63,986 bases of DNA from a virus, in the IMG/VR virus record IMGVR_UViG_3300043392_000024, positions 1-63,986 of that record, one strand, 5' to 3'. A program made the translations under genes and the position numbers. Each line of letters starts with the position of its first letter. The stretch's first letter is position 1. Below the pieces are notes generated by a model. The model made no database searches, was not told where the DNA came from, and was given only the letters and a program-made list of their open reading frames with translations. Shown one piece after another: positions 41,605 to 55,354 of this stretch.

Positions 41605-41640
41605 TGTACTTTTTTAAGATTGATTGTATTATTTATAAAG

Positions 41641-41762
41641 TTGTACATTTTTGTGCACAAAAAGTGTACAAATTATTTTAAAGTTTGCATAGATAACTAA
41701 TTGATTATTAGTTATTTATATTCTTTAGTGTACAAAATGTACAAAATAAGAGTAATAATTAC
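41641..41762. promoter_or_regulatory. Regulatory/origin-like region R1
   Basis: Between the primase-helicase start and the HNH gene there is a gene-free stretch. It has a perfect 16-bp palindrome TTTTTGTGCACAAAAA (41648-41663) nested in TTGTACA...TGTACAA; GTGTACAA at 41664 and again at 41728; AAGTTTGCA (41681); and a 9-bp inverted repeat ATAACTAAT/ATTAGTTAT around TGATT (41693-41715). The same elements in the same order occur at 54453-54580 (R2). They look like protein-binding sites or an origin. The remainder to 41834 is AT-rich without a gene. Confidence 0.65.
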
Positions 41763-41834
41763 AAAAAAATAAAAACACACATGGTATTAATTATATATAG
41801 TAAGTAAGTAGCTCCTATTTTGTACATCTTTGTA

Positions 41835-42353
41835 TTAGTCTTCTTTGTTTTCTATGCAGAATAAAATAAATGACTCATGCTTTTCTTTTGTGTCAAGTAA
41901 CTCATTGGTATCATATCTGCGATACATCATTCTTTCTTGATCGTAAACAATGAAGCGGTGAGCTTTCATGTGTTGCTTCTTTGTTATGAATATCAAGTCC
42001 TTATAATGATCCTCATTGTATGACCAATGGTGTTTCTCGAGTCCAGGTTGTGGTGGTTTAATCTTGCCAGACATAGTAGAAGCCCTCTTCTTTTCAGGAT
42101 ATAATAAATGATATCTTAATAAGTTTTTAGGTTTAGCTTTCCCTGTCCCCTCATACAACCTATGGTATTTTTCACGACCTCTCTTCCTTTCCTTTTCAAC
42201 AAACATATTATCTGACGATAATTCAGTATATCGAATCTTAACATCATTCTTAGTGCAATCAATGCACTTATTTAGATGACCATCAAGCATTTGTTTGTGT
42301 TTATAAAAATCTGATAGTTCTTTTTCAATACCACACTTAAAACATTTTTTCAT
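41835..42353 (-). CDS. HNH endonuclease-like zinc protein
   Basis: A 172-residue protein. The N-terminus has two Cys pairs typical of phage zinc fingers, MKKCFKCGIEK and LNKCIDCTKN. A basic helix follows. The C-terminal half has an HNH-like core, LEKHHWSYNEDHYKDLIFI and KKQHMKAHRF, with three His in nuclease positions. It is likely a free-standing HNH nuclease; a role in recombination or genome integrity is possible given its operon with SSB and exonuclease. Its promoter TATCTTTG-type element follows upstream. Confidence 0.7.
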   Translation of the reverse strand: MKKCFKCGIEKELSDFYKHKQMLDGHLNKCIDCTKNDVKIRYTELSSDNMFVEKERKRGREKYHRLYEGTGKAKPKNLLRYHLLYPEKKRASTMSGKIKPPQPGLEKHHWSYNEDHYKDLIFITKKQHMKAHRFIVYDQERMMYRRYDTNELLDTKEKHESFILFCIENKED

Positions 42354-42373
42354 ATTATTTACTTTTGTTTCTA

Positions 42374-42381
42374 CAAAGGTA
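42374..42381 (-). promoter_or_regulatory. Bacteroidota -7 element for the HNH gene
   Basis: Minus-strand TACCTTTG matches TAnnTTTG and ends 20 bases before the HNH start. Confidence 0.55.
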
Positions 42382-42408
42382 ACTAAAATAAACTAAAAAA
42401 CTTCCATT

Positions 42409-42726
42409 TTAAAAGGGGAGCTCATCACCCTCCTCAACTACCGGGGCAGCTGCAGGAGGAGGCGTTGGCGTAGATGGTGCTGCCTTTGCAGTAGAGCCAC
42501 CTTCTGATGACCATACTAACTTTCCATTAGCCAAGTAAATTTTAGATGCCTTAGCCTCACGCTCTTCCTGTGTTTGCGACTCGGTAATGGTCAAGATATT
42601 TCCGTATTGATCCGGCTCATCGTTAATAGAGATAGTTACATTTGCGTAAGTACCCTTTTGTCCTTTGACAAATTTGTCTTTAGTGAATTTTGTTACATCA
42701 ATAGATGCTGAGAATAATTGTGCCAT
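42409..42726 (-). CDS. Single-stranded DNA-binding protein (SSB-like)
   Basis: A 105-residue protein. The first 75 residues are beta-rich as in a small OB fold (SIDVTKFTKDKFVKGQKGTYANVTI). A disordered Pro/Ala linker (TPTPPPAAAPV) follows, then a final acidic tip EEGDELPF. The tip with terminal Phe is the typical SSB C-terminus that recruits partner proteins. It is shorter than bacterial SSB. It is in one operon with the exonuclease and annealing protein, so it probably coats ssDNA during recombination and replication. Confidence 0.75.
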   Translation of the reverse strand: MAQLFSASIDVTKFTKDKFVKGQKGTYANVTISINDEPDQYGNILTITESQTQEEREAKASKIYLANGKLVWSSEGGSTAKAAPSTPTPPPAAAPVVEEGDELPF

Positions 42727-42738
42727 TTTATTTATTGT

Positions 42739-43011
42739 TTAATTGTTTAACTTTTCTATTTCTTGTTTAACTTTTATGTAATGATCTAGATTGATATTTA
42801 CTCGTGTCATTGAATCTTCATCGTAAGAATATGGGGCTACATTCCAGGATATAAAATCTATTATTTTATCTACTGCTAGAATTGCACATTGTTTAGCTTT
42901 TGCCTTGTCAATTCCTTCGATACCTGTATTTTCAGCAATTCCTAAGTTGTCTTCATACTCAAATAGTGATACCAAATCTTTAGCTTCTTTTATTGGGTTC
43001 ATGTATCTCAT
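42739..43011 (-). CDS. QEIEKL-family small protein, copy 1
   Basis: A 90-residue helical protein with AKQCAILAVDKIIDF in the middle and YIKVKQEIEKL at the end, the marks of a small family present three times here. The start at 43011 is supported by an ATGA overlap with the exonuclease stop. The family is frequent in Bacteroidota phages; function unknown. Confidence 0.7.
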   Translation of the reverse strand: MRYMNPIKEAKDLVSLFEYEDNLGIAENTGIEGIDKAKAKQCAILAVDKIIDFISWNVAPYSYDEDSMTRVNINLDHYIKVKQEIEKLNN

Positions 43012-43742
43012 AAAGTTTCCGATTTAAAAAACTGAGTGATGTCATCGGTAGCATTTGCTCCGAAGAACTTTTGATAGACCTCGATAGCCTTGTATACTTT
43101 CTCTCGGCCACGATCCATGAACTCATCGCTACATTCAAATAAACCTGTGCGACAGGTATCTTTTTCAACAGCGATGAATACCATAGGCTTACCGAACAAT
43201 TGATTGTATATATATGCTTGACTATCGTAATTATATTTGCGTGCCGAAAAGCGAAAATCATCAAGGTTACCAGTCGTTTTGAGATCAATGAGTAACTCAC
43301 TACCGACTATATCCGACTTGCCTTTCCATTGCACACCACCAATCTCTCCAATAGCAGGCACCTCGTACTCGTTGTCAGCATCACGAATCATATCGTAGAA
43401 GGTGAAGTTACCAAGCAAAGCCTTGACCATTCGATCGATGTCCTCAGCTTCTTTCTGAAGCAATAACATGTCCACACCATGAGATGCGATAGCCTCCTTA
43501 TAAATGTTAGTCGTGCGTGTCGATGCCTCTACTCGTGGGAAGTTAATGATCTTCTCAGGCTCCAGGATCGATGCGTGGAAATAAGACCCAGCAAGCATAG
43601 CCGGAGTCTTATCCTTGTCCTTACCAAACTGCATGGGATTGTATAACAATGCACCGATGTCTGAGTTAGATAAGTAGTTCTTGCCAACACCTGAGTAGTA
43701 CTCGGTGTCGTTGCGTAGGGTTTCTAAAATCTTATTTTCCAT
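43008..43742 (-). CDS. PD-(D/E)XK exonuclease (RecE/YqaJ-like)
   Basis: A 244-residue 5'-3' exonuclease of the PD-(D/E)XK superfamily. The start is set at MENKILETL; an earlier ATG would add 9 residues. Motifs are an early GSYFHASILEPE (the GxxxHxxxLEP seen in RecE-like nucleases), GKSDIV (catalytic Asp), LLIDLKTT (D-x-K) and the helix YDSQAYIYNQ. It belongs with the annealing protein two genes upstream, a two-component recombination system analogous to lambda Exo-Beta or RecE-RecT. Confidence 0.85.
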   Translation of the reverse strand: MENKILETLRNDTEYYSGVGKNYLSNSDIGALLYNPMQFGKDKDKTPAMLAGSYFHASILEPEKIINFPRVEASTRTTNIYKEAIASHGVDMLLLQKEAEDIDRMVKALLGNFTFYDMIRDADNEYEVPAIGEIGGVQWKGKSDIVGSELLIDLKTTGNLDDFRFSARKYNYDSQAYIYNQLFGKPMVFIAVEKDTCRTGLFECSDEFMDRGREKVYKAIEVYQKFFGANATDDITQFFKSETL

Positions 43743-43959
43743 AATTTTCGTTGTAATATTGTTCTGCATCTAATTTGCATTCTATACCCTCAGGGACATT
43801 TGATTGCCAGCATTCTACAAATGCATCTTTTATTTGCTCCTTCTCCATTTGTTTGGCTTGTTCAAATAGCAAATTTTGTTCTTCTGATGTCATATAATCC
43901 CAATAAGTTCTTGTTATTTGGTCATAAAACCATTCTACTGCCGTTTGTTTAGTTTCCAT
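43732..43959 (-). CDS. KQTA-family small protein, copy 2
   Basis: A 75-residue protein (METKQTAVEWFYDQI...), with QAKQMEKEQIKDAF in the middle and EQYYNENYG at the end. Start chosen at the family-typical MxxKQTA; an ATG five codons earlier exists. It overlaps the exonuclease and the upstream gene by 11 bases each. Function unknown; the family is repeated at 38604 and 46306. Confidence 0.7.
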   Translation of the reverse strand: METKQTAVEWFYDQITRTYWDYMTSEEQNLLFEQAKQMEKEQIKDAFVECWQSNVPEGIECKLDAEQYYNENYGK

Positions 43960-44311
43960 TTTCGTATTGTTCAATTATCATTTTATTTGCAATATTATAT
44001 ACATCAAAGAAGCAATCTAAATCATCTTTAGTTAGTGCAAGTAATCTCGAACCAACACTTCTTAAATCAACGTCAGGTTCTTTGTGATTATAATCTAACA
44101 AAGCAATCACATAACATAATTCTTCACTTTCAAATATTGTAGATTGTATCCTATGGTTATCAGATTGAACAAATCCATCTTCTTCTACATATCCTTTGTT
44201 TAAATAATCATTCTTAAGTCCGTAATATGTATTAGGAAACCATTTTAATATTTCATACCTATCAGTAGTACCACAACTACGACATTGAATACTATTAATC
44301 CTTATGTTCAT
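43949..44311 (-). CDS. Hypothetical protein with N-terminal Cys pair, 120 aa
   Basis: A 120-residue protein starting with CRSCGTTDRYEI, a half zinc ribbon. The rest is mixed alpha/beta and ends in a helical, acidic segment. It starts on the stop codon of the annealing protein (shared base), so it is coupled. No family recognised. Confidence 0.6.
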   Translation of the reverse strand: MNIRINSIQCRSCGTTDRYEILKWFPNTYYGLKNDYLNKGYVEEDGFVQSDNHRIQSTIFESEELCYVIALLDYNHKEPDVDLRSVGSRLLALTKDDLDCFFDVYNIANKMIIEQYENGN

Positions 44312-44913
44312 TACTTGCGTAGTTTATTGATTGCTTTCTTAGTTGCCTCTGAGATGTCGTACTTAACCGACAACTTTTTGATCACCTCCTCGGTGCTTAG
44401 TCCCATATTGTCAATGACAAAGTTGGACACCTTCTGCCAATTAGCATCGCCTTCTACTAAGGCTACCTTAGATGTAGTCTTAGGCTGTGCCTTAACAGCT
44501 TGCATACTTGAGTCAGACTCCGATGGGAAGTCCTCCTTAGCGTAGATGTTCAACGCCAAGCCATGCAATGCCAACGCCTTCACCGTAGATCGTTGAATAG
44601 TCTTGTTAACCTGCATCGAAGTGATGTTAGCCAAAGGCACAGACTGATTACGCATGTCCATCACAGGTAGGTAGTCAATATGCTCCTGGCCTTGAATCGT
44701 TACACCAACCTTGACCCAAGCAGTTGAGCCATCCGTGAAGTAGTTCATGTGCGTATCACTCTCATAAACTGTGCGAGACATATCAGGAAATAACTTCTTG
44801 CATTCTGCCCAAGCGTGAGCCCAAGATAAGTAGGTTAAGTTACCTCTCTTTTCCGTTTTAGATGAGAGGTTGAGAGCAGACAATTGCTCGAATACTGATT
44901 TTTCTTTTGACAT
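44311..44913 (-). CDS. Single-strand annealing protein (DUF1071-like)
   Basis: A 200-residue recombinase. The N-terminal core matches the DUF1071 type of phage annealing proteins: LTYLSWAHAWAECKKLFPD, then TDGSTAWVKVGVTIQGQEH and the invariant-looking NKTIQRSTVKALALHGLALNIY. The core is shared with Rad52/Erf-like SSAPs. A C-terminal helical domain (about 155-200) resembles a small helix-hairpin. It pairs complementary ssDNA made by the exonuclease and is probably used in repair and concatemer formation. It is the first gene of an operon with its own promoter upstream. Confidence 0.8.
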   Translation of the reverse strand: MSKEKSVFEQLSALNLSSKTEKRGNLTYLSWAHAWAECKKLFPDMSRTVYESDTHMNYFTDGSTAWVKVGVTIQGQEHIDYLPVMDMRNQSVPLANITSMQVNKTIQRSTVKALALHGLALNIYAKEDFPSESDSSMQAVKAQPKTTSKVALVEGDANWQKVSNFVIDNMGLSTEEVIKKLSVKYDISEATKKAINKLRK

Positions 44914-44937
44914 AATTGAATTGGATTAAATGTTCGA

Positions 44938-44945
44938 CAAAGATA
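44938..44945 (-). promoter_or_regulatory. Bacteroidota promoter of the recombination operon
   Basis: Minus-strand TATCTTTG lies 24 bases before the annealing-protein ATG. A TTTG (minus strand, 44971-44968) stands 22 bases upstream as a possible -33 element. Confidence 0.65.
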
Positions 44946-44978
44946 AAATTAATTTTGATATACACAACAAAGTTCTTT

Positions 44979-45479
44979 TTAGTGTGCAAGAAGTTCTTTT
45001 AATAGTACAACTTTGTATTCAAGTTCAACTAAAGAACCGGCATTTGGTATGATGATATCCGACATACTCCATATGTCAACATCGAAAGATTCTCGAGGTT
45101 CCAATGGTTTCATTGGGTCGAACACACCAATCACCAAATCAAAGATGCCATCATGAGTGCAAGCCTCGAGCTCACGATTGCTACGCATCCCTGTGTAGAT
45201 GTCGTTGTTGTCCATGATGTACTTAGCCAATTGACCTGGATAGTCTTGATTGTACTCACAAATCATATCGAACCACTCAGCTCTGTGGTTCACCCGATCC
45301 TCGAAGCATTCCTCAGGAGTCTTGTACCCATACTTGTCCTTCAATGCATCGTACAGGAATAAGCGTGAGGCAGCTTGCGAACTGCTCTCACTCTTGTATC
45401 CAAAATGCTTATTCATAAATTCTGCGACCGTGTCCTTACCATGACGTGCGTGGCCGATGATACATATTTTCTTTTTCAT
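44979..45479 (-). CDS. P-loop deoxynucleoside monophosphate kinase-like protein
   Basis: A 166-residue P-loop protein with an N-terminal Walker A variant ICIIGHARHGKDT (GxxxxGKD/T) as in phage dNMP kinases, then a helix with EFMNKHFGY. An Arg-rich region NHRAEWFDMI and YTGMRSNRELEA may bind phosphates; the last third contains DIIIPNAGSLVELE typical of the fold. It would phosphorylate dNMPs from host DNA breakdown. It is coupled to the next small genes by 4-base overlaps. Confidence 0.75.
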   Translation of the reverse strand: MKKKICIIGHARHGKDTVAEFMNKHFGYKSESSSQAASRLFLYDALKDKYGYKTPEECFEDRVNHRAEWFDMICEYNQDYPGQLAKYIMDNNDIYTGMRSNRELEACTHDGIFDLVIGVFDPMKPLEPRESFDVDIWSMSDIIIPNAGSLVELEYKVVLLKELLAH

Positions 45480-45667
45480 AGCTTCTCTATTTCTTGTTTA
45501 ACTTCATCTAAATATTTATTGTAACCATCTGTATTCAATGGGTTTTCTCTTGCAAATCCAACCGCAATTAATGCACATTGTTTAGCTTCATAAATTCCTG
45601 TGTAATTTGGTACCATAAATTGGTAATACTTTCCAACTAATTCTTCTGCTTTTTCTTTCTGTGTCAT
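45476..45667 (-). CDS. QEIEKL-family small protein, copy 2
   Basis: A 63-residue protein (MTQKEKAEELVGKYYQ..., AKQCALIAVGFA, VKQEIEKL at the end). It is clearly paralogous to 42739 and more distantly to 45664. Four-base overlaps on both sides. Function unknown. Confidence 0.7.
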   Translation of the reverse strand: MTQKEKAEELVGKYYQFMVPNYTGIYEAKQCALIAVGFARENPLNTDGYNKYLDEVKQEIEKL

Positions 45668-45876
45668 ATATTAAATAATTCTTGTTCAACTTGTTCTAAA
45701 TAAGGTTGCGATTCTACATCGCACCACTCAATCATTTTTCTTACTGTACAATGGACGCATAACTTTACTGCATATTTTCTGGAAAATTCATCGTAAATCT
45801 CGTCCATTAATAATGAATTATAATGATCGATTAATTCGTGTGCCATTTCTTTTGGCGTTATATCTTTTGTCCCCAT
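45664..45876 (-). CDS. QEIEKL-family small protein, copy 3
   Basis: A 70-residue, more diverged member (PKEMAHELIDHY, CTVRKMIEWC, LEQVEQELF). It is adjacent to copy 2, consistent with tandem duplication. Overlaps the zinc-ribbon gene by 19 bases. Function unknown. Confidence 0.65.
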   Translation of the reverse strand: MGTKDITPKEMAHELIDHYNSLLMDEIYDEFSRKYAVKLCVHCTVRKMIEWCDVESQPYLEQVEQELFNI

Positions 45877-46322
45877 CTGTTGATTCCTTTTTTATTGTAT
45901 TTATAATAATAAACATACAGGTTATAAAACCCATTCTGATTTCTGCGAAGGATTAACTTGTCCTTACACGCATCGCATTGGTAGCTTACCGACTGCGTGT
46001 TCTTAGATCGCATGAAAACTTTGTCAGCATCACACTCATCGTTCTTATGCCCACACTTAGGGCAGTTCAATCGATGCTCAAGGAAGCCTGACCTTACTCG
46101 CTCATCGCCATACTCAGGATCGGTTGGCTTAGCCTTGTAAACCTTAACGAATCCTTTCCGGGTTCTTCTGAATACTAATCTTCTCTCGCATCCAGCACAT
46201 TTGCCGTTCGCTCGCTCTTGCTCATCTTCCGTTCGATCAAAAATATTAATCGCATAGTCGAGGTCAGATTCGTGGCCACAATGTGGGCAGTCAAGCGTGT
46301 TCTTTCTAATAGTGTATCCCAT
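45858..46322 (-). CDS. Double zinc-ribbon protein, 154 aa
   Basis: A 154-residue protein. The start is set at MGYTIRKNTLDCPHCGHE; the frame is open further upstream but only as a shadow of the preceding gene. Two similar halves carry CPHCGHESD with CAGC about 35 residues later, and CPKCGHKND with CDAC. Each half is a four-Cys zinc ribbon followed by LVFRRTRKGFVKVY or LILRRNQNGFYNLY. This is an internal duplication. A nucleic acid- or protein-binding adaptor is likely. Confidence 0.7.
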   Translation of the reverse strand: MGYTIRKNTLDCPHCGHESDLDYAINIFDRTEDEQERANGKCAGCERRLVFRRTRKGFVKVYKAKPTDPEYGDERVRSGFLEHRLNCPKCGHKNDECDADKVFMRSKNTQSVSYQCDACKDKLILRRNQNGFYNLYVYYYKYNKKGINRWGQKI

Positions 46323-46527
46323 TGATAATTTCTTTAAATTTTTTGTACAAATATTCTGCGGACTCATTCCAACCTTTCTTGTATTGTTTGGCCATTTGAT
46401 CTTGCTCCATTTCTTTGGCTTGTTTGAAAGATTCTTCATACATATTTCTTAATTGTTCGGAATCAAAACTAACAATACCCAATAGGTGTATGTATAGTCT
46501 ATCTACTGCCGTTTGTTTATTTGCCAT
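46306..46527 (-). CDS. KQTA-family small protein, copy 3
   Basis: A 73-residue helical protein (MANKQTAVDRLYIHL..., SFKQAKEMEQDQMAKQY). Leader is AAACAACAAGACAATG. It is paralogous to 43732 and 38604. It overlaps the zinc-ribbon gene by 17 bases. Function unknown. Confidence 0.7.
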   Translation of the reverse strand: MANKQTAVDRLYIHLLGIVSFDSEQLRNMYEESFKQAKEMEQDQMAKQYKKGWNESAEYLYKKFKEIINGIHY

Positions 46528-46714
46528 TGTCTTGTTGTTTAAACTGAGAGTTCATAAGGTTTCGCATTCTCTTCTTGTAGGCATTCTTCCTCATAGATTT
46601 TTCTTGTTGTTTTGTGAATGGATGACTACTAAAAAAGTTTCCGCACGAGGAGATATATCCTCTAAACTCCTTCATATCTGAGCCATCAGATGATTTACCT
46701 GTGTATAGTGCCAT
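46517..46714 (-). CDS. Small basic protein, 65 aa
   Basis: A 65-residue, strongly basic protein (SMRKNAYKKRMRNLMN). Leader is again AAACAACAAGACAATG, with an intercistronic hairpin before it. Nucleic acid binding is possible. No family recognised. Confidence 0.6.
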   Translation of the reverse strand: MALYTGKSSDGSDMKEFRGYISSCGNFFSSHPFTKQQEKSMRKNAYKKRMRNLMNSQFKQQDNGK

Positions 46715-46731
46715 TGTCTTGTTGTTTAATA

Positions 46732-46775
46732 AGGTTATACCCTTAAAGTTTTTTAAAAAAATCAGGATATAACCT
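46732..46775 (-). promoter_or_regulatory. Intercistronic hairpin with shared leader, site 1
   Basis: 8-bp inverted repeat AGGTTATA / TATAACCT with a 28-base AT-rich loop, just before the AAACAACAAGACA leader of the next gene. It overlaps the stop of the upstream gene. Loop words (CCTTAAA, AAATCAGG) match the site at 39188-39233. Confidence 0.5.
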
Positions 46776-46992
46776 GTTGTTTAATGTGATTAATTGTCCA
46801 CTCCACACCAAACTTAAATATTGCATCAAATTCAAATGAATAGCTTGAGTCTTCTATTTTATCGTCTATTTCAAATTCACTTGGTAGTTCGATGGGAGTG
46901 TAATCCCCTAATAAAAAATCTGTAGTTAGCCAAGGAGAAATCCTAGCTTCAATCATTGCGTGCTTTACTTGTTCTTCTGTATATAATTTCAT
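46762..46992 (-). CDS. Hypothetical protein, 76 aa (MKLYTEEQV family)
   Basis: A 76-residue acidic protein starting MKLYTEEQVKHAMIEAR, a start I know from many small Bacteroidota phage proteins of unknown function. The end is a helix (FGVEWTINHIKQQV). It overlaps the upstream gene by 4 bases. Confidence 0.65.
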   Translation of the reverse strand: MKLYTEEQVKHAMIEARISPWLTTDFLLGDYTPIELPSEFEIDDKIEDSSYSFEFDAIFKFGVEWTINHIKQQVIS

Positions 46993-47393
46993 TTGTCTTG
47001 TTGTTTACAGATTGAAATAAGTTTATCTATACAAGCATTCTCTGCTTCTTCGTAGGTATAATAACCTAGTGGACTTTCATCAACTACCCATTCTTCTTGT
47101 TCATTAATAATTATCTCCCAAGAATATCTATATCCTTCTTTATCAGATGCAGTTATTTTTAGCGGGAATACACTAGTGTGAAGTATATTGTGCTTCTCCC
47201 TAAACCATCTAAATACTTGTTGTTTAAGTGGTGCAAGAGTGTGATATGTAGGATTGAATAATACACCATCATCTGTACTAAACCCAATATATAGTTTACC
47301 AAAATCTTCATCATACCCAGCCATACATTTCTCATCAAAGCCAAGGTACATTAGTGCTACTGCTTGATCAAAGCTTACAAATTCTTCGCTCAT
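46989..47393 (-). CDS. Hypothetical protein, 134 aa (widespread Bacteroidota phage family)
   Basis: A 134-residue protein with FVSFDQAVALMYLGFDEKC at the start, APLKQQVFRWFREKHNI in the middle and YTYEEAENACIDKLISI at the end. These marks belong to a family that I recall from many Bacteroidota phages and prophages. Its role is unknown. The start overlaps the lipoprotein stop as ATGA, so the two are coupled. Confidence 0.7.
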   Translation of the reverse strand: MSEEFVSFDQAVALMYLGFDEKCMAGYDEDFGKLYIGFSTDDGVLFNPTYHTLAPLKQQVFRWFREKHNILHTSVFPLKITASDKEGYRYSWEIIINEQEEWVVDESPLGYYTYEEAENACIDKLISICKQQDK

Positions 47394-47536
47394 TTCTTAT
47401 AAGGTTTATAGTCAGGATACTTTTTATGTATCGCCTTCCGTGTGATTTTAGATTGTTTTGACTTCTTGACATAGCATCCCCTATCGCAAGAACTTAGGCC
47501 AATGGCCAACATTAAAATGATTAAACTATATTTCAT
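47390..47536 (-). CDS. Small lipoprotein, 48 aa
   Basis: A 48-residue protein with a signal peptide and lipobox: MKYSLIILMLAIGLSSC, so Cys17 would be lipidated after signal peptidase II cleavage. The mature part is basic (KKSKQSKITRKAIHKKYPDY). It would lie in the outer or inner membrane. It is part of a chain of overlapping microproteins. Superinfection exclusion is one possible job for phage lipoproteins of this size. Confidence 0.65.
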   Translation of the reverse strand: MKYSLIILMLAIGLSSCDRGCYVKKSKQSKITRKAIHKKYPDYKPYKK

Positions 47537-47636
47537 ATCTCGGTCGGTATAAAAACGCAGCGATTATCGCCACAGGTAAAATAAGTAGCACGGCTATCGT
47601 GCCAAACAATGTAAAGGCTATCAAATTAATAGCCAT
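47526..47636 (-). CDS. Single-pass membrane microprotein, 36 aa
   Basis: A 36-residue protein with one hydrophobic segment (about 4-29, LIAFTLFGTIAVLLILPVAI) and a short basic tail (YRPRYEI). Overlaps both neighbours by 11 bases. No other features. Confidence 0.55.
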   Translation of the reverse strand: MAINLIAFTLFGTIAVLLILPVAIIAAFLYRPRYEI

Positions 47637-47850
47637 GTCGCTTAAGCTCTGCTTCATAAGACTTCTTAGTTTTGGTGAAATTAACTATGCCTAACTTGTC
47701 AACATAGGTCGAGTCAAATGACTCATCCCAATTCTGATCCTGCAGGTTCACTCTCACGATTCTTGGTGAGGGTTTTGTCGAGCCTGGCTTCGAGCCAATC
47801 ACGATTAATAATACCCCCAAGCTTATTGTAGTTAGCAACATTTTTCTCAT
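47626..47850 (-). CDS. Exported or membrane-anchored small protein, 74 aa
   Basis: A 74-residue protein; start set at MRKMLLTTISLGVLLIVIG, an N-terminal signal or anchor without a Cys lipobox. The rest is polar. It overlaps the DnaA-like gene by 128 bases in another frame. The signal-like start argues that the frame is real. Confidence 0.5.
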   Translation of the reverse strand: MRKMLLTTISLGVLLIVIGSKPGSTKPSPRIVRVNLQDQNWDESFDSTYVDKLGIVNFTKTKKSYEAELKRHGY

Positions 47851-48094
47851 TTGATTTAAATTTTTTAATTCCATACAAAACTGATGCGTGATCTATAGGA
47901 TACCCATATCTCTCGCAGTACCTCTGAATCTCGCACACCTTTATACCTGCATCCTTGCACAGGTAATAAAAGTGATGCCGAGCGTTCACCACCGGAAAGG
48001 CTTTCGTATTTCGAAACATATCAAGCTTCTTAATACGATGGCGATATATAATTTTCTTTGCGATCTCATCGATCAACTCTACATTAGTAATCAT
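47723..48094 (-). CDS. DnaA domain IV-like DNA-binding protein
   Basis: A 123-residue protein. Residues about 28-85 resemble DnaA domain IV: NARHHFYYLCKDAGIKVCEI, then YGYPIDHASVLYGIKKF, the counterpart of the DnaA signature GRDHSTVLHAVRKI, with His and Ala/Ser in the DNA-reading positions. There is no ATPase domain. It could recognise a DnaA-box-like origin or compete with host DnaA. The last 40 residues overlap another gene and may be loosely constrained. Confidence 0.7.
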   Translation of the reverse strand: MITNVELIDEIAKKIIYRHRIKKLDMFRNTKAFPVVNARHHFYYLCKDAGIKVCEIQRYCERYGYPIDHASVLYGIKKFKSNEKNVANYNKLGGIINRDWLEARLDKTLTKNRESEPAGSELG

Positions 48095-48174
48095 CTACAA
48101 AAAATTAAGATTAAAATAACAAACACTACCCATGTAACAATGGTGAATACACCTCCAGCTTGCTTATCGCTCAT
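48091..48174 (-). CDS. Membrane microprotein, 27 aa
   Basis: A 27-residue protein, MSDKQAGGVFTIV then a hydrophobic end with VFVILILIFCR. ATGA overlaps at both ends (with the DnaA-like gene and the next microprotein). It is very short, so the call rests on coupling and composition. Confidence 0.45.
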   Translation of the reverse strand: MSDKQAGGVFTIVTWVVFVILILIFCR

Positions 48175-48266
48175 ACCTTATAAATAAAATGTGCCAACCA
48201 AAAAATAACTATACTGAATACAAGCCATAACCCTACGGCTAATAAGATTCTATTTCTTTCTTCCAT
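48171..48266 (-). CDS. Membrane microprotein, 31 aa
   Basis: A 31-residue protein (MEERNRILLAVGLWLVFSIV...) with one transmembrane segment. ATGA overlap with the next gene, and overlap with the upstream 47-residue gene. Confidence 0.45.
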   Translation of the reverse strand: MEERNRILLAVGLWLVFSIVIFWLAHFIYKV

Positions 48267-48393
48267 AATAAATTAAGATTAAGATTAAAATATAACACAA
48301 TAAAAACAATAACGCTGGTAGCATCAAGCCTATGTTAGCACAAATAATTGCAGCAAACATAAAAGCAAAGGGCATATACATTAGTCTATGCAT
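48250..48393 (-). CDS. Membrane microprotein, 47 aa
   Basis: A 47-residue protein with two hydrophobic segments (FAFMFAAIICANIGLMLP and LLFLLCYILILILIYY) and a basic tail (GRKK). It overlaps the preceding gene by 13 bases and the following by 17 bases. Confidence 0.5.
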   Translation of the reverse strand: MHRLMYMPFAFMFAAIICANIGLMLPALLFLLCYILILILIYYGRKK

Positions 48394-48626
48394 AAGTATT
48401 CATTTATAAGGTCATCAAATTGTTTAAGTAATCTCTCACGGTCGTTATCGTACGATGTGAATAACCAAGTCGCATTCTCGTAAGCCTGCAGTATATACTT
48501 GGTAGTTATCGGGTCACGATCTAATGTTAGTTGCAGATGACTCCAATTGCTCAATGGCAGTATAAGTCTTCCCTTCTTTTTGCCCGAAAGGATTAATTCG
48601 CGAAAAGGTTCGAGGTGCTGTCTCAT
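48381..48626 (-). CDS. Hypothetical protein, 81 aa
   Basis: An 81-residue alpha/beta protein (GRLILPLSNWSHLQLTLD, then helices). Its first 113 bases overlap the end of the 136-residue gene in another frame. Since the overlap is long, a start inside could be correct. No family recognised. Confidence 0.45.
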   Translation of the reverse strand: MRQHLEPFRELILSGKKKGRLILPLSNWSHLQLTLDRDPITTKYILQAYENATWLFTSYDNDRERLLKQFDDLINEYLCID

Positions 48627-48924
48627 ATAATTTTTGTCTTGCGATTGATAATTGGAACTCTAAATTGTCATGCCATTGCTTAGGAGCATAGGCTATGTTA
48701 AATTGTACCGATCTAAATTCATTCTCGAATTCACGAAAGTTTAAACGATCCTCGGCATACATACATAGCTTACTATAACTGTAGTTATGTTTGTCTGAGT
48801 ACCATATACTAAAATCTGAGATCGCCTCAAGGATGTACTCCTCTCGGTACTCCTTAATATCGCCTACACGAATAGCATTAAGGATAAAATTACGGCAGTC
48901 GATTAAAAAATCTTGCTTATTCAT
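48514..48924 (-). CDS. Hypothetical protein, 136 aa
   Basis: A 136-residue, mostly helical protein (DFLIDCRNFILNAIRVGD at the start). Its C-terminal 35 residues lie in the overlap with the next gene and look less ordered. No family recognised. Confidence 0.55.
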   Translation of the reverse strand: MNKQDFLIDCRNFILNAIRVGDIKEYREEYILEAISDFSIWYSDKHNYSYSKLCMYAEDRLNFREFENEFRSVQFNIAYAPKQWHDNLEFQLSIARQKLYETAPRTFSRINPFGQKEGKTYTAIEQLESSATNIRS

Positions 48925-48974
48925 TTGGTAAGGGGGTTAAATTTCGGTTGAAAGTTAGTAGAATTAATTGGCAT

Positions 48975-49655
48975 TTACAACACCTTGCTCCATTGGTTTG
49001 CGATCGCTTTAGCCATTCCCTGAAATGTTTTGCTTCTCAAAGTTCTACGCTCCGCAGGAGTTTTAGCCTGACTTAAAGCCTTGTAATACCACATCGGCTG
49101 TCGCTTTACTTTCCCACTCTTGCCATCAACCCATTCAAAAAATTCTCCCTTATCTACAATGTCAGTAGGAGTGATCAATGGTAGATTTTTAAGCCACAAA
49201 CAAGTAGACTTATTTGCTGAATCACCAAACATCCAAGGCTGAATGATCTGATCGGGTTTACGCCATGCAGTTGATAATGATCCAATAGGATTCTCAATTG
49301 CGATCCGAGGAATATTCGACTCATAAAGTTTTATAACAAACTCAATCGCTGACTGCCGATCACACTCACGATTTGGATATCTTGGGTGAGGTCTACGCTC
49401 ATTACTTGGCAAGTGCTTATCATCGGGATGGTAGTACCATGCAGCCCCACTTGAGGACAAAAATGTGCAAGGTGGGTGAGCGATCATAAGATCCCAGTTC
49501 TGATCAATCACACCAAACACATCGCCTTGTATGTGCCACTCGGGGTGACCTCCCGAGCAAGGCAAGATGTCGCAACTGAATGCCTCATGACCTAAGGCCC
49601 TAAACTCTTTTGTGATCGCTTGACTTTCCTCGCAAGCTATTAATACTTTTGCCAT
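48975..49655 (-). CDS. C5 cytosine DNA methyltransferase-like protein
   Basis: A 226-residue protein. The start is set at MAKVLIACEESQA, the usual beginning of this phage family; an in-frame ATG 21 codons earlier lies in the next gene. Motif I is VLIACEESQ, followed by HEAFSCDI (SAM-binding acidic residue). Motif IV is AHPPCTFLSSSG with the catalytic PPC Cys. A later ENP-type motif is IAIENPIGSL. It is short for an m5C methyltransferase and lacks an obvious target-recognition domain. It may mark phage DNA against host restriction. Confidence 0.75.
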   Translation of the reverse strand: MAKVLIACEESQAITKEFRALGHEAFSCDILPCSGGHPEWHIQGDVFGVIDQNWDLMIAHPPCTFLSSSGAAWYYHPDDKHLPSNERRPHPRYPNRECDRQSAIEFVIKLYESNIPRIAIENPIGSLSTAWRKPDQIIQPWMFGDSANKSTCLWLKNLPLITPTDIVDKGEFFEWVDGKSGKVKRQPMWYYKALSQAKTPAERRTLRSKTFQGMAKAIANQWSKVL

Positions 49656-49668
49656 TTTAAATTTCGTT

Positions 49669-50010
49669 TTAATATCCGTAAAAAAATCCTTGTTCATCGC
49701 ATCGCTTAGGCTCTTCATTTCGCCAATCTATTGACCGATCTTCATCAATGTTAGGCCAAATAATATCAGATCTATTTTCAGTAGAGTATGCTAGTTCAAT
49801 ACCCGCACTTCGATCTGATCCAAGGCCGTTCATTTCAGCAAGCAACTCATAAAAGTCTTTGTTATCAAACTTTCCGTAGCCCTCATATAAAGGCTCATGC
49901 CATACGTTCCCTTGATTATCCTTTAGGTATACATTCAAAGCCCCTCGAACTGAATGTACATTTGATACGCTCTTATTGGTATCGTTAGTTATGAATGAAT
50001 GAAATCCCAT
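49669..50010 (-). CDS. Hypothetical protein, 113 aa
   Basis: A 113-residue protein. The N-terminus is beta-rich (TNDTNKSVSNVHSVRGALNVY), followed by YGKFDNKDFYELLAEMNG and acidic C-terminal residues. I recall similar short proteins in phages but no function. Leader is AAACGAAAATTAAAATG, shared with its neighbours. Confidence 0.6.
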   Translation of the reverse strand: MGFHSFITNDTNKSVSNVHSVRGALNVYLKDNQGNVWHEPLYEGYGKFDNKDFYELLAEMNGLGSDRSAGIELAYSTENRSDIIWPNIDEDRSIDWRNEEPKRCDEQGFFYGY

Positions 50011-50027
50011 TTTAATTTTCGTTTAAG

Positions 50028-50537
50028 TTATTTTGCTAGTAAAGTTTTTAAATGCTTTTTGAATATATACATATCAAACACTTCATTTACATCATTAAAA
50101 TAACATCCATTAAAATACACTTTGAATCCTTTTAATTTTAAATATGATCGCCCTAATATGGTTTCATAATCACTTCGCATTTCATACTTCCAAACTAATG
50201 CATTGCCATCATGATAGCCATTCCCTATACAACTTCCGTTTTGATGTCTTATTTGAAAATAGTTATCATGATCTTTGTACGGCAAAAGTTCAAGTCCAAT
50301 TTCACGAAGCATATCGCCGTACTTCTTATTATCTTCTGCCATTTGCAAGTTCATCGCCTCTCTGATCGCAATATTACTTGCACCTATTTCTCGAATGCGA
50401 ATTTCATCTTTCTCCACCTCATCACACAAATGAGCAAAGATATTATCAGCTGATCCGATTGCATGATCATTAATTTTCGCAAACTCATTTACTAAGTTTG
50501 AAATAATTTCGTTTTGTTTTGGGGTTAAATTTTCCAT
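50028..50537 (-). CDS. Hypothetical protein, 169 aa
   Basis: A 169-residue protein: a helical first half (LTPKQNEIISNLVNEFAKI) and a beta-rich second half (GFKVYFNGCYFNDVNEVF). The leader is TTAAACGAAAATTAG. No family recognised. Confidence 0.55.
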   Translation of the reverse strand: MENLTPKQNEIISNLVNEFAKINDHAIGSADNIFAHLCDEVEKDEIRIREIGASNIAIREAMNLQMAEDNKKYGDMLREIGLELLPYKDHDNYFQIRHQNGSCIGNGYHDGNALVWKYEMRSDYETILGRSYLKLKGFKVYFNGCYFNDVNEVFDMYIFKKHLKTLLAK

Positions 50538-50538
50538 T

Positions 50539-50736
50539 CTAATTTTCGTTTAAATTTTGTGTCGTAAATATTTCTATAAAATCAGTGTAAAATTCATCGG
50601 CATTAAATACCTCAATGTAGTTACACAATACATCGTTTTTCTCATCATATTGATTATCTGCATTATATCGAATAATCACCTCAGCATTCGGGTTTGGATG
50701 CTGATTTAAAATTTGAATTAAGTCTTTGATCGTCAT
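50539..50736 (-). CDS. Hypothetical acidic protein, 65 aa
   Basis: A 65-residue protein starting MTIKDLIQILNQHPNPNAEV, a pattern common in small phage proteins (a helix, then Pro and VIIRYN strand). It is one base from the next gene. Function unknown. Confidence 0.6.
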   Translation of the reverse strand: MTIKDLIQILNQHPNPNAEVIIRYNADNQYDEKNDVLCNYIEVFNADEFYTDFIEIFTTQNLNEN

Positions 50737-50737
50737 T

Positions 50738-50947
50738 TTAATTTTGGTTTAAATAGTTTAAAATTGGTTCTACTTTCTTTGTATACTGCTCCACGTAATC
50801 TGCCAGGCTATCGTCAATTTCCGTAAAAATTGAGTTTTCGATCTGCTCCTTTGTATTCCGATCGTATACTTTGATAATGATCACACCGCTTATTGACTTG
50901 ATAATATGCAGGGAATAATCGCCTGCCTTAATTATTTTCTTGCTCAT
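50738..50947 (-). CDS. Hypothetical protein, 69 aa
   Basis: A 69-residue protein with a beta-rich start (YSLHIIKSISGVIIIKVYD) and a helical end. It overlaps the upstream small membrane gene by 20 bases. No family recognised. Confidence 0.55.
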   Translation of the reverse strand: MSKKIIKAGDYSLHIIKSISGVIIIKVYDRNTKEQIENSIFTEIDDSLADYVEQYTKKVEPILNYLNQN

Positions 50948-51083
50948 CTAATTCTGATTTTAAAAAGGTTAAAAAATTGATTAGTAAAATGCCACCGCCT
51001 AAGAATGTCCAAAATCCGTTTGGCTGATCAACCTCAATAAATAAAAATGAGATTGCTATTAAATTTGCTATTGATCGTTTCAT
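50928..51083 (-). CDS. Small membrane protein, 51 aa
   Basis: A 51-residue protein with two hydrophobic stretches (about 6-16 and 23-41, with GFWTFLGGGILLINFLTF), and an acidic end. Overlaps both neighbouring genes (20 and 4 bases). Confidence 0.5.
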   Translation of the reverse strand: MKRSIANLIAISFLFIEVDQPNGFWTFLGGGILLINFLTFLKSELDEQENN

Positions 51084-51484
51084 ATTAATTTATTTACAAT
51101 TTGATCCCATTCCTTTTTACTGATAGCACCATCAATATTTTTGTAGTATTCCGTGTAGAATTCCATTGTATGCAATTTTTTAAGCAACTGAGTAACCACA
51201 TACAAATACTGATGCTTTTGTGCCTCAAGATCACACTCACTTCTGAGTTCGAAAAAATCGCCATCTGAGTTATACTCATTTCCGTTCTCATCAAAATATT
51301 GAATTTGAACATCTACCAAATTTTCTTCGCCCTCAAATTGAGGTGATGCCCACAACTTAAGATCACCATTTGACCAACAGATCGCACCCGTTTGGATATC
51401 TCTTTCTAAATTGAAGCAATCTATTTTAGTCACTCCAAAATCTACATTTTTGTAATTGATATACTTTTGCATATTAGTCTTCAT
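51080..51484 (-). CDS. Hypothetical protein, 134 aa
   Basis: A 134-residue acidic, mixed alpha/beta protein (GVTKIDCFNLERDIQTGAI and DGDFFELRSECDLE). Overlaps the next gene by 11 bases. No family recognised. Confidence 0.55.
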   Translation of the reverse strand: MKTNMQKYINYKNVDFGVTKIDCFNLERDIQTGAICWSNGDLKLWASPQFEGEENLVDVQIQYFDENGNEYNSDGDFFELRSECDLEAQKHQYLYVVTQLLKKLHTMEFYTEYYKNIDGAISKKEWDQIVNKLI

Positions 51485-51731
51485 AATAGTTTATAATTCT
51501 TTCAATTTTCTCATTTATAATGCTTGTAACATTGTTAATGTTTGAGTCAATAGCACGCTTCAGAATGGCCTTAAATTGATCGGCTTCTATAACTATCTGC
51601 TCATCGTCTGCACGATCGTCATTCACTTCATCTAGAATATTTTCTACATCGTATACGCTAAACAATAGATCTGTATTGTAGCCTCTTTTTTTAAGCTCTT
51701 GAATTAATTCAAATGTCTCTATCTTTTCCAT
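51474..51731 (-). CDS. Hypothetical helical protein, 85 aa
   Basis: An 85-residue protein, mostly helical, acidic in the middle (DEVNDDRADDEQ). The end has IINEKIERIINYYED. No family recognised. Confidence 0.55.
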   Translation of the reverse strand: MEKIETFELIQELKKRGYNTDLLFSVYDVENILDEVNDDRADDEQIVIEADQFKAILKRAIDSNINNVTSIINEKIERIINYYED

Positions 51732-51764
51732 TTTATTTAAATTTTCTTAATTTCCAGTTTTACA

Positions 51765-52319
51765 CTATTTTTTATTTTTTACCTTTTTAAACTCAGCAAT
51801 TAAACATTCCGTTAAATATTCGATCCGCTCAAATGTAGCTTTGTCGTTTTTCATTGTTTCGACAAACTCTTGATTATCGTACATCTGATAAACTAGTTCG
51901 CTTACCTTATGCTGTGCTACAATATCGTTATATGTAGGTATCAGCGTTTCAATATTATCAATGATCTCGTAAACTTGTTTCCGCCAAATTTCTTTTTGTT
52001 TCTCAATGTCTCCAAAATATGGCTTGATATCTACTTCAATCACTTCGCCTAAAATATCGCCAAAACCGCCATTTCCATAAATATCATTTACACTAAAGTA
52101 GATCGTACCCCAATCATTTTCGAAGCATGGCGAACAATACAATTCTAGACCCGTTTTAGGATCAACAAAATATCTTGCATCTGTATGGCGATCGCTACCA
52201 AATTGCCAACCTTTATAGTCACACTCACCTTTGAGTTTATCGTCTGTTAAAAATCCGCTGTTTAAAATATCATTAGATAATTCGCGTAGATCAATATAAA
52301 TTCTATTTAAGTTTTCCAT
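51765..52319 (-). CDS. Hypothetical protein, 184 aa
   Basis: A 184-residue protein with a beta-rich middle (YFVDPKTGLELYCSP and NDWGTIYFSVNDIYG) and helical ends. It shares the general plan and the stretch about a DPKTG/ETG-like region with the 134-residue protein at 51080, which might be a distant paralogue. Function unknown. Confidence 0.55.
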   Translation of the reverse strand: MENLNRIYIDLRELSNDILNSGFLTDDKLKGECDYKGWQFGSDRHTDARYFVDPKTGLELYCSPCFENDWGTIYFSVNDIYGNGGFGDILGEVIEVDIKPYFGDIEKQKEIWRKQVYEIIDNIETLIPTYNDIVAQHKVSELVYQMYDNQEFVETMKNDKATFERIEYLTECLIAEFKKVKNKK

Positions 52320-52368
52320 TTTAAATTTGATCCGATATTATTGCCTCGGATCTACGGCTTTAGGTTTA

Positions 52369-52599
52369 TTACTTAATTGCGTTTAAAATATATCCTTTAA
52401 TTTCCTCAGCCTTACTGTCACATAAACGTTGACACAAAAAGCTATCTAAATATTGCGTTTCAAATTCGATATATTTTGGATTTCCAAAATAAAAATTTAT
52501 CTCCTCGTCTCCTGTTTTTATGGTGGTTAATTTGCTACGCTCTTTTATATATACTTTGTAGCTATCTCCTTTTAAGTTTAATTTAAATGTCTTTTTCAT
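52369..52599 (-). CDS. Hypothetical protein, 76 aa
   Basis: A 76-residue basic protein with a beta-rich first half (FKLNLKGDSYKVYIKERSK) and a Cys pair (FLCQRLCDSK) near the end. No family recognised. Confidence 0.5.
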   Translation of the reverse strand: MKKTFKLNLKGDSYKVYIKERSKLTTIKTGDEEINFYFGNPKYIEFETQYLDSFLCQRLCDSKAEEIKGYILNAIK

Positions 52600-52630
52600 G
52601 ATCTTTTATTTTTAAAGGTTGATTAATTTA

Positions 52631-53341
52631 TTATCTTACTACAAAGCCCGTTGTATCCGCTTTTGCTTTTGATCCTTTAGCCTTTAGCCCTAATATTTTT
52701 CCGCTCAATTCCAACATAAGATCGTCCGCTTTATCGCCGTCAATTACTTCAGCACCCAAGTAGGTTTTAGGCATCGGCTTTTTATGATCGAATACTACAG
52801 AAACATTAGCACCAATTGATAGGGCTTTTTTTGCATCGGCTTCATTAATTTCAGATCGGCTAAAAGTTAAAATATAATTTGTCCCTTTGTACTTCATTAC
52901 TTTGCCCAAAACTTTAGTGTAATCGTAAAAAATTAAGTTAGGAAAATCCGCTAAAATATCTTTATTCAATCTGTTTTTAATGATCGCAATAAAATCTAGA
53001 TCGGATGTTCCGTTTAATCTTACTTCAATTTTGCCGTTTTTCTTAATTGCTTTTTTGTTCAGCAAAAACAATTCATGGTAAATTTTTTCGCAAAAGGCTG
53101 TTCGATCTGTAATGTACATTTCAGTTCTACGTGATCTAGCTTGATTGATTGTAGCATATACAGACGCAAGCCCTGAATTTACCAAACAGCCGTTTATACA
53201 GCCGTCGGAAGCATTTGTACAAATATTGACCCATTTGCTGTTTTGATTATATGGAAGCATATACAATATATGCGTTTCCAAACTGTTTTTAACTGTTTTA
53301 GCGTTATTTGATCCTTTCGAAATTAATTTTGCAGTTGACAT
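52631..53341 (-). CDS. Gp88-like phage protein, 236 aa
   Basis: A 236-residue protein resembling the phage gene-product-88 family. The segment NICTNASDGCINGCLVNSG holds three Cys, and RLNGTSDLDFIAI and FYDYTKVLGKVMKY follow, then LTFSRSEINEADAKKAL. In this family, the Cys-rich start and FYDYTK motif are conserved; I know no proven function, though a radical or nucleotide-modifying enzyme fold has crossed my mind. Lys/Ala-rich tail. Confidence 0.7.
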   Translation of the reverse strand: MSTAKLISKGSNNAKTVKNSLETHILYMLPYNQNSKWVNICTNASDGCINGCLVNSGLASVYATINQARSRRTEMYITDRTAFCEKIYHELFLLNKKAIKKNGKIEVRLNGTSDLDFIAIIKNRLNKDILADFPNLIFYDYTKVLGKVMKYKGTNYILTFSRSEINEADAKKALSIGANVSVVFDHKKPMPKTYLGAEVIDGDKADDLMLELSGKILGLKAKGSKAKADTTGFVVR

Positions 53342-53363
53342 AATAGTAATATTTTAAGGTTGA

Positions 53364-53579
53364 TTAATAATTGAATTCGATTTTATCTAATTTTAAGTTC
53401 CATTCATTTGTAAGGTCTACAATTGTTTGGCTGTGCCATTCATTCAAAGGTGCTAAATTTTTAGCTTTGATCTTTGCGCCTCTTATTGACTTGCATAATA
53501 CTACAGCCGTAAACATAATTTCAAATTCGCCATGGCTGTTTAATTTTTTGAATGTTATTCTAAATTTCTTCATGATCAT
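53364..53579 (-). CDS. Hypothetical basic protein, 71 aa
   Basis: A 71-residue protein with beta-alpha elements (FRITFKKLNSHGEFEIMF, RGAKIKAKNLAPLNEW). It resembles in its overall plan the 78-residue neighbour, with a strand and an Ala-rich helix (RFSAYGKATILALRIN). The two may be diverged tandem copies. Function unknown. Confidence 0.55.
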   Translation of the reverse strand: MIMKKFRITFKKLNSHGEFEIMFTAVVLCKSIRGAKIKAKNLAPLNEWHSQTIVDLTNEWNLKLDKIEFNY

Positions 53580-53585
53580 TTATAT

Positions 53586-53822
53586 TTAAAAGTGATAAAT
53601 AGTTTTTTCTAATTCGACTAGATCTAAATTTGAATTAATACGTAAGGCTAAAATAGTCGCCTTTCCATATGCTGAAAAACGGCTATTGGCTTTAACTGTA
53701 ATTTGCTGTTTTGGTGATCCTAAAAAATAAGCGTTAAAAATGTACGTATCCATGAGCGTAATATTTAAAAGGTTTTTGTTTGAATGCGATTGCAAGTAAT
53801 AAAGGATTTTTTTATTATGCAA
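53586..53822 (-). CDS. Hypothetical protein, 78 aa (first early leftward gene)
   Basis: A 78-residue protein; the real start may be the internal MDTYIFNAYFLG (codon 24), which gives 55 residues and a closer match to the 71-residue neighbour. It is the first leftward gene from the central non-coding region. Confidence 0.5.
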   Translation of the reverse strand: MHNKKILYYLQSHSNKNLLNITLMDTYIFNAYFLGSPKQQITVKANSRFSAYGKATILALRINSNLDLVELEKTIYHF

Positions 53823-54039
53823 ATATTTTTGTTGAATTCATGTAGAATTTTTTTGATCGCAAAGGTTTGGGTTAACCTGGAATTATAGATTTTGTCCTAT
53901 AAAAAATTGCGATTCAAGAAAGCCAGGGCACATTAAGCCGTAAAATTATTCGATAAATACAATAAAAATATGTTGAAAACTTTTTTTCAGATCAATGAAA
54001 TATTTTTAAAAAGGATTGAAAAAGTAGAAAATTTTGGGC

Positions 54040-54300
54040 TGTGGCAAGCCGTGAAGTCACGGCGATTTATCGCAAATATTTTTGGCTTTTTTGTTTTGCG
54101 ATCGGATCAAAAAAGGTATTGATCGGATCGGATTTTTGTAATGGAAACGGCTGTAGATCTGTTGCAATTGGATCGGCAAAAGTGTAAACTAATTTGATCG
54201 GTTTATTAGTTAATTAGACAAACATCTAATTGCAAAATGTAGATAGTTAGTCAAGCATCTAATTAGCAATGTGGCTAATTAGCCGAACGGCTAAATAAGA
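54040..54300. other. Candidate replication origin core: hairpin, GATC cluster, iterons
   Basis: The stretch 53823-54828 has no convincing gene. Inside lie a 7-bp inverted repeat GCCGTGA-AG-TCACGGC (54048-54063) and seven GATC sites in 100 bases (54100-54199), four of them as two GATCGGATC pairs. Two related direct repeats of about 33-bp period follow (CATCTAATTGCAA at 54223 and CATCTAATTAGCAA at 54256), then AT-rich DNA. A GC-rich patch (CACCCCCCGGGGTC) is near 54340. These features together resemble an origin; no experimental mark is visible. Confidence 0.5.
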
Positions 54301-54452
54301 AAAAGCCAAAAAGTTCCGAGCCTTTAGTCCAATCCGCACCCCCCGGGGTCAAAAAAAGATCGTTTCCCCTGGATCGCCGCCGGTGTAAAATGATGGGGTT
54401 ATCCAAAATCCATTTTTATCTAACATAAATTTCTACCCTATTCATGAACTCA

Positions 54453-54580
54453 GTGTACAAAGTGATGTACAAGTGTAGAAGTTTGCAAACTTTGATTTTA
54501 AAGTATGTAATCCTAACTTATTGATTATTAATAAGTTATATTTATTTTTATGAATAGTGCTTAAAATGTATAAAATAATA
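54453..54580. promoter_or_regulatory. Regulatory/origin-like region R2, related to R1
   Basis: In the same order as R1 there are GTGTACAA (54453), a second TGTACAA (54466), the palindrome AGTTTGCAAACT (54480-54491), a 9-bp inverted repeat TAACTTATT/AATAAGTTA around GATTATT (54514-54538), then GTGCTTAAAATGTATAAAATAA. The 10-mer TTGATTATTA is identical in both inverted repeats. A-tracts follow to 54640. The region precedes the winged-helix gene at 54829. Confidence 0.6.
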
Positions 54581-54773
54581 GAGAAAAATAAAAAAAAATA
54601 AAATATATAGAAATAGAAAAATATATATAGAAGTATATAGGCAAAAAAGTTTGCAAGTTTACATAGGTCATTATTTATTGTTACAACAAAAAGTATATCA
54701 ATATGTTACGATTACATACTGTCGAATTGGCTTTTACAAACTGTAAACATTTCCTACACTCGTTCATTAAAAG

Positions 54774-54805
54774 TTTGCATATATTCATGCTATTAGTTAT
54801 ATTTG
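54774..54805 (+). promoter_or_regulatory. Full Bacteroidota promoter before the chaperonin operon
   Basis: TTTG (54774-54777), 20 bases, then TATATTTG (54798-54805). This matches the -33/-7 layout closely and is the best promoter in the window. The next ATG is 24 bases downstream. The TTTG lies within another AAGTTTGCA copy, the same word as in R1 and R2, so a regulator that binds this word could block the promoter. Confidence 0.75.
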
Positions 54806-55346: not shown

Positions 55347-55354
55347 TAAGTTTG
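55347..55354 (+). promoter_or_regulatory. Bacteroidota -7 element before groEL
   Basis: TAAGTTTG matches TAnnTTTG, 20 bases before the groEL ATG. No good -33 element. It would allow groEL-groES to be expressed apart from the upstream gene. Confidence 0.5.

Follow-up and report, generated by a model that had tools for sequence, protein, structure and literature searches.

P4 possesses two separate cis sites, ori1 and crr, an iteron with the sequence TGTTCACC and a small regulator, Cnr, that acts through the winged helix. According to PMC4234260 (citing Yeo 2002), the alpha protein of P4 joins a primase and a D5/SF3-type helicase to a C-terminal winged helix that binds the origin repeats, and the P4 primase is assigned to the TOPRIM type (PMC4234260). 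ORF904 of pRN1 likewise carries a primase, an SF3 helicase and a C-terminal winged helix and belongs to a replication operon with an upstream control region; the origin of pRN1 consists of a large stem-loop and has no iterons (PMC4234260).

The window analyzed here, i.e. the whole stretch of 63,986 bp of viral DNA, bears an identical direct repeat of 127 bp at both ends (1-127 and 63860-63986, detected with a whole-window repeat finder), which is what a complete genome assembled as a circle should show. Family searches (Pfam and PHROG) identified a terminase, a primase-helicase, an SNF2-like helicase, a Sak annealing protein, exonucleases, a collagen-like tail fibre and GroEL. No match to a DNA polymerase was obtained in these searches, in which several large ORFs were matchless and small ORFs were only partly covered. 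Relatives among annotated phage records point to Bacteroidota as the host group and, from the IMG/VR viral contigs, 80 primase relatives were kept for comparison. The primase-helicase contains a BT4734-like N domain, PriCT_1, DUF5906 (a D5-type helicase region) and a predicted C-terminal winged helix. As PF08800, PF08708 and PF19263 all scored above cut-off, the primase and the D5/SF3-type helicase reside in one polypeptide. The features considered below are listed in Table 1.

Table 1 Positions of the features considered in the window, with the basis of each assignment.
Feature	Position	Strand	Basis or remark
Primase-helicase, 790 aa	39232..41604	-	Pfam; PHROG 28855/18375
Predicted C-terminal winged helix of the primase	39262..39486	-	AlphaFold2 pLDDT 84, H-E-H-H-E-E order
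Recognition helix SKQRFNSWLRTYAL and wing GRDAAGKWMLI of the primase winged helix			Each carries one covarying position
R1	41640..41762	.	Sequence; homologous to R2; conserved in ~17 relatives
R1 iteron-like sites, 5' part: GTTGTACA, TGTGCACA, GTGTACAAA, AAAGTTTGCA	41640, 41652, 41664, 41680		
R1 dyad TAACTAATTGATTATTAGTTATTTA	41694..41718	.	Pattern TAACTNNTTGATNATYAANNAGTTA
R1 sites after the dyad: GTGTACAAA, ATGTACAAAATAA	41728, 41737		Followed by AT-rich DNA
HNH/endonuclease-VII-like gene	41835-42353	-	Beside R1, distal to the primase
DnaA-domain-IV-like small protein	47723..48094	-	Pfam Bac_DnaA_C E=1.4e-4, below curated cut-off
R2	54453..54580	.	Sequence; homologous to R1; clade-wide conservation upstream of groEL
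R2 sites before the dyad: GTGTACAAA, ATGTACAA, AAGTTTGCAAACTT	54453, 54465, 54479		
R2 dyad TAACTTATTGATTATTAATAAGTTA	54514..54538	.	Also upstream of groEL in relatives with ~50% groEL identity
R2 site after the dyad: GTGCTTAAAATGTATAAAATAA	54558		Followed by AT-rich DNA
Putative Bacteroidota-type promoter of the 165-aa gene: TTTG, 20 bp, TATATTTG	54774..54805	+	Sequence
165-aa protein	54829..55326	+	Primase C-terminal domain in two diverged copies, residues 13-72 and 82-164
Putative -7 element of groEL, TAAGTTTG	55347-55354		Sequence
groEL	55375..56916	+	Pfam/PHROG
groES	57124-57381		Recognised by eye
Small protein beside groES	57376..57864	-	PHROG 17028 (function unknown), no Pfam hit

The initial annotation had described two related regulatory regions, R1 and R2, and both are present where it had placed them. 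They are collinear over ~160 bp, and the two intergenic regions gave a best local alignment score of 87, against a maximum of 50 in 2000 Markov-shuffled pairs. Independently, the whole-window repeat finder paired 41726-41774 with 54555-54603 at 80%. Within the window, TTGATTATTA occurs at positions 41701 and 54521 only, and the 25-bp dyad pattern TAACTNNTTGATNATYAANNAGTTA has four matches, these being both strands of R1 and R2, with 0.06 expected and none elsewhere. The tract after the dyad reads GTGTACAAAATGTACAAAATAA in R1 and GTGCTTAAAATGTATAAAATAA in R2. It had also been claimed that the two regions hold the same elements in the same order. This is correct for the kind and order of the elements, but the sites differ base-for-base, as the best alignment pairs GTGTACAA of R1 with AAGTTTGCAA of R2, and AAGTTTGCA of R1 with AAGTATGTA of R2. 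Reading of both sequences revealed no DnaA boxes (TTATCCACA) in R1 or R2. R1 does adjoin the primase gene, just upstream of its start, but the domain shared with the 165-aa protein lies at the opposite end of the primase. The HNH/endonuclease-VII-like gene on the other side of R1 is possibly a mobile insertion. To the left of R2, a long noncoding stretch includes a GC-rich island at 54320-54400, and the cumulative GC skew reaches a late minimum near 53-54 kb, close to a switch in gene direction.

When R2 was compared by BLAST with 43 related records, most close relatives showed two strong places, situated upstream of the primase and of groEL, respectively, and a profile search confirmed both. 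The two regions persist together in ~17 close relatives, the alignment of which presents a fixed order of TGTACA/GTTTACA-type sites, the dyad, ATGTACAAAxTGxACAAAATA and A-rich DNA. Some relatives (e.g. G005 and G013) have another gene between R1 and the primase, with R1 staying upstream of that gene. In distant relatives (~50-60% primase identity), the same two places contain three direct repeats spaced 11 bp, the dyad and AT-rich DNA. These repeats belong to the family RTGTNNACTT (GTGTCGACTT, ATGTTGACTT and GTGCTTACTT), and the dyad then reads TAACTnnTTGATTATCAAnnAGTTA or a variant thereof. In all copies of R1 and R2 that we read, the dyad gives way to an AT-rich tract. Upstream of the primase of distant phages, the sites were missed by a generic dyad scan and found by template anchoring; a recognisable R1 is absent in some distant records, e.g. 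G016-G020 and G036-G042. Among recognisable sites, the 11-bp direct repeats 5' of the dyad were significant for R1 in 12 of 12 genomes (p<=0.003) and for R2 in 10 of 11, with lag-11 identities in distant relatives of 0.79 in R1 and 0.68 in R2. The iterons of the window's own clade are less regular (lag-11 identity 0.35-0.38). A search of annotated phages with R2 DNA yielded, among the matches listed, only short ones of low significance.

The flanks of R1 and R2 are more similar within genomes than between genomes, both in distant relatives (p=0.0004, n=7) and in all genomes together (p<0.0002, n=20). For close relatives alone, within- and between-genome similarities were no different (p=0.52), as is to be expected when all share one iteron type. 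Judged by sequence, the R1 and R2 of distant relatives have what would be the anatomy of an iteron origin, and they may act as such. We considered whether R1 and R2 are one duplicated replication element, read by the C-terminal winged helix of a primase-helicase that serves as an initiator of the P4 alpha or pRN1 kind, and we give this reading an even chance.

It should be considered, against reading by the primase, that the matching of R1 to R2 could also arise by gene conversion, which would by itself yield within-genome similarity. R1 and R2 would in that case be paralogous copies that are kept alike, the dyad would be a terminator-like or host-factor hairpin and a shared phage reader would be unneeded. 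The dyad pattern is indeed common and intergenic in Bacteroidota/FCB genomes, often with outer arms and a T run. The exact dyad was found in at least 119 viral and at least 120 genome stretches and, among the genome matches listed, almost all came from Bacteroidota, Fibrobacter or Lentisphaerae; a dyad specific to the present lineage was accordingly ruled out. Copies in genomes were intergenic in 80 of 82 cases, many possessing complementary outer arms together with a T run, and some lying just after tRNA genes. We nonetheless hold conversion alone to be quite improbable, as none of the phage R1 and R2 dyads that we read has extended arms, as the order of iterons, dyad and AT-rich DNA is conserved and as residues of the primase, whose codons lie at a distance from both regions, track the iteron change described below.

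As for the dyad itself, the 25-bp form TAACTnnTTGATTATCAAnnAGTTA was seen in L286-L365 (genome contigs) and L167-L246 (viral contigs), with many copies in one Microscillaceae MAG. Many chromosomal copies have, around a conserved core, the extended arms and T runs that are seen in intrinsic terminators, and the dyad could represent an element of the terminator-like or host-factor kind, adopted by the phages. Chromosomal copies look terminator-like, while in phage copies the outer arms are missing and the nn positions pair inconsistently; because of this inconsistent pairing, an RNA hairpin reading of the phage dyad was provisionally set aside. The literature searched held nothing relevant on the dyad core letters.

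A structure search with the predicted winged helix of the primase returned weak, generic winged-helix hits, with the P4 origin-binding domain (1ka8) at E=1.5, and a PDB sequence search with the C-terminal profile gave chance hits only. The proposed link between this domain and the iterons is an indirect one, from natural variation within a clade of 12 genomes. In G026, G028, G029 and G032, the fourth iteron base, scored by eye and by automated count, is predominantly C, as against T in the others, with R1 of G032 being mixed (two RTGC and two RTGT). On a primase tree built without the C-terminal domain, the RTGC genomes fall into two separate lineages, and a single clade was rejected (AU p=0.0008). 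Only 2 of the 257 variable primase columns follow RTGC versus RTGT perfectly, namely a V versus S/H column in SRIRFNKWM[V]A, within helix 3 of the predicted winged helix, and a K versus R column in GRDxxG[K]WM, within its wing. A pair of columns of this kind in the helix 3-wing segment was obtained for 1 of 495 four-genome subsets, the RTGC one, although this fraction, like that given below for another protein, is a guide and not a preplanned test, as the trait was picked after the sequences had been seen. The covariation comprises two independent changes among the 12 genomes. As the helix-3 position is V also in the RTGT lineages G037 and G041, neither covarying residue alone sets the iteron base.

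The same sites might instead be early-gene operators that coordinate the primase operon with the groEL region and are read by the DnaA-domain-IV-like (or the groES-adjacent) protein, with the covariation in the primase being coincidental. R1 lies within the upstream region of the primase gene, and half-sites are typical of dimeric regulators. The DnaA-domain-IV-like protein, our main candidate for a rival iteron reader, is found clade-wide, with homologues in each of the 12 distant genomes that were checked and one, annotated as dnaA, in MW202828, and presents one perfectly covarying column. At least one such column, however, arises in 12 of 495 subsets, as compared with 1 of 495 for the two columns clustered in the recognition surface of the primase. 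The groES-adjacent protein, a weaker candidate that is MarR-like as judged by eye, has no covarying column in 8 genomes, while groEL has two in the same number, both scattered. Moreover, a promoter-like element belonging to groEL itself lies ~200 bp from R2 in relatives, and direct iterons at helical spacing suit initiators better than simple operators. We thus consider operators of this kind rather unlikely. The groES-adjacent gene is convergent with groES and present across the clade, with relatives in groEL loci, and the groES neighbour in MW202828 is annotated as a repressor protein.

The 165-aa protein had been proposed to consist of two copies of the primase C-terminal domain, and profile comparisons bear this out. 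A profile of 33 primase C-termini matches the ORF in two stretches with E=6.2e-10, the next-best ORF of the window being at 0.88. When the two halves were aligned with the primase domain by hhalign, as the initial annotation had suggested, the first reached a probability of 89% and the second 95%, while the best shuffles (150 each) reached 28% and 16%, respectively. Profile-profile comparison of the protein together with L183 and L279 (see below) against the primase domain raised the probability to 98% (E=1.6e-13). Structure prediction, which had likewise been suggested, returned a winged helix for the primase C-terminus, but the AlphaFold model of the 165-aa protein alone, from a single sequence, was poor (pLDDT 38). 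The Bacteroidota promoter consensus is TTTG/TANNTTTG, and a putative promoter of this type precedes the gene.

With the 165-aa protein as query, no match was obtained in Pfam, PHROGs, phage records, viral contigs or genome contigs. That the protein is unique was nonetheless ruled out when a C-terminal profile search of all ORFs in the fetched, dyad-bearing loci gave two homologues, L183 (38% identical) and L279 (~20%), both stand-alone, two-domain proteins encoded between the R2 dyad and groEL. Since these loci were obtained through the dyad pattern, sampling partly accounts for the closeness of the two genes to R2, but not for their closeness to groEL. No additional members emerged from further scans of viral contigs or from one of genome contigs. 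The R2-groEL slot (e.g. L107:1179-1454, L110) is variable, holding a two-domain protein, a member of a 91-105 aa MK(L/P)Y...IRVNI family, an HNH endonuclease or nothing, and in G003 and G013, close relatives without the 165-aa gene, R2 directly precedes groEL. The 165-aa gene is accordingly no fixed neighbour of R2, contrary to the pairing that was first described, although diverged homologues do recur in the same slot.

The absence of the protein from close relatives, and the presence in the slot of an unrelated ORF family or an HNH gene, would fit an unrelated cargo regulator that arrived there by chance and makes no contact with R1 or R2. Such an explanation is compatible with the initiator model but, given three diverged two-domain proteins in one slot, all homologous to the initiator's C-terminal domain, we find it unlikely. 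More plausible, if still tentative and somewhat short of probable, is that the lineage repeatedly acquired or kept a stand-alone tandem duplicate of its initiator's origin-reading domain beside one of the two sites, where it would serve specifically to restrain replication.

For the preferred reading, in which the primase-helicase acts as initiator, the following sequence of events can be proposed. R1 and R2 would be two copies of a cis-acting element composed of an iteron array, a palindrome and an AT-rich stretch, and the C-terminal winged helix of the primase-helicase would recognise the iterons at both. The protein would then load and unwind DNA as a D5/SF3-type hexamer and subsequently prime synthesis, with the DNA polymerase probably being supplied by the host. 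Because R1 and the primase control region overlap, binding at R1 would be autoregulatory as well. The 165-aa protein would offer the same DNA-reading domain as a spare pair, without primase or helicase, and would most probably either compete for iterons or pair with the domain of the initiator, in both cases braking initiation. The three diverged versions in the same R2-groEL slot make it plausible that a Cnr-like brake has been made out of the initiator's own domain. The replication-initiation circuit that was originally suggested retains its shared domain and its duplicated, iteron-like element that tracks the primase C-terminal domain, but not the 165-aa gene as a constant partner of R2.

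No description of this system was found in the literature searched. If the proposal is true, it would provide a concrete model of replication initiation for an uncultured, widespread lineage of Bacteroidota phages, in which the iterons and the residues that read them are named from natural covariation, together with an example of a small regulator derived from the very domain with which the initiator binds the origin. The system also offers a ready test of winged-helix specificity, with V/S and K/R set against C/T.

Among known systems, the poxvirus D5 and VirE-type primase-helicases share the architecture of the DUF5906 helicase region and the position of the C-terminal domain. We know of no iteron-type origin for poxvirus D5 and, to our knowledge, neither D5 nor the VirE-type proteins have a small two-domain paralogue. 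Iteron plasmid origins (of the RepC of RSF1010 type) resemble R1 and R2 in having direct repeats spaced by about one helical turn beside AT-rich DNA, but in the present phages the reader is fused to the primase-helicase and the element is duplicated, with one copy next to a chaperonin gene. As in pRN1, primase, helicase and C-terminal winged helix are united in one protein, although iterons and a palindrome, in two copies, are found here. By analogy, P4 alpha would be a close counterpart, having one primase/helicase/winged-helix protein, two distant iteron sites and a small regulator, with the binding in the present case being predicted. It differs in that the primase here is BT4734-like/PriCT_1 and not TOPRIM, that a palindrome lies here between the iterons and the AT-rich DNA and that the candidate small regulator, present in some members, repeats the initiator's own domain in tandem.
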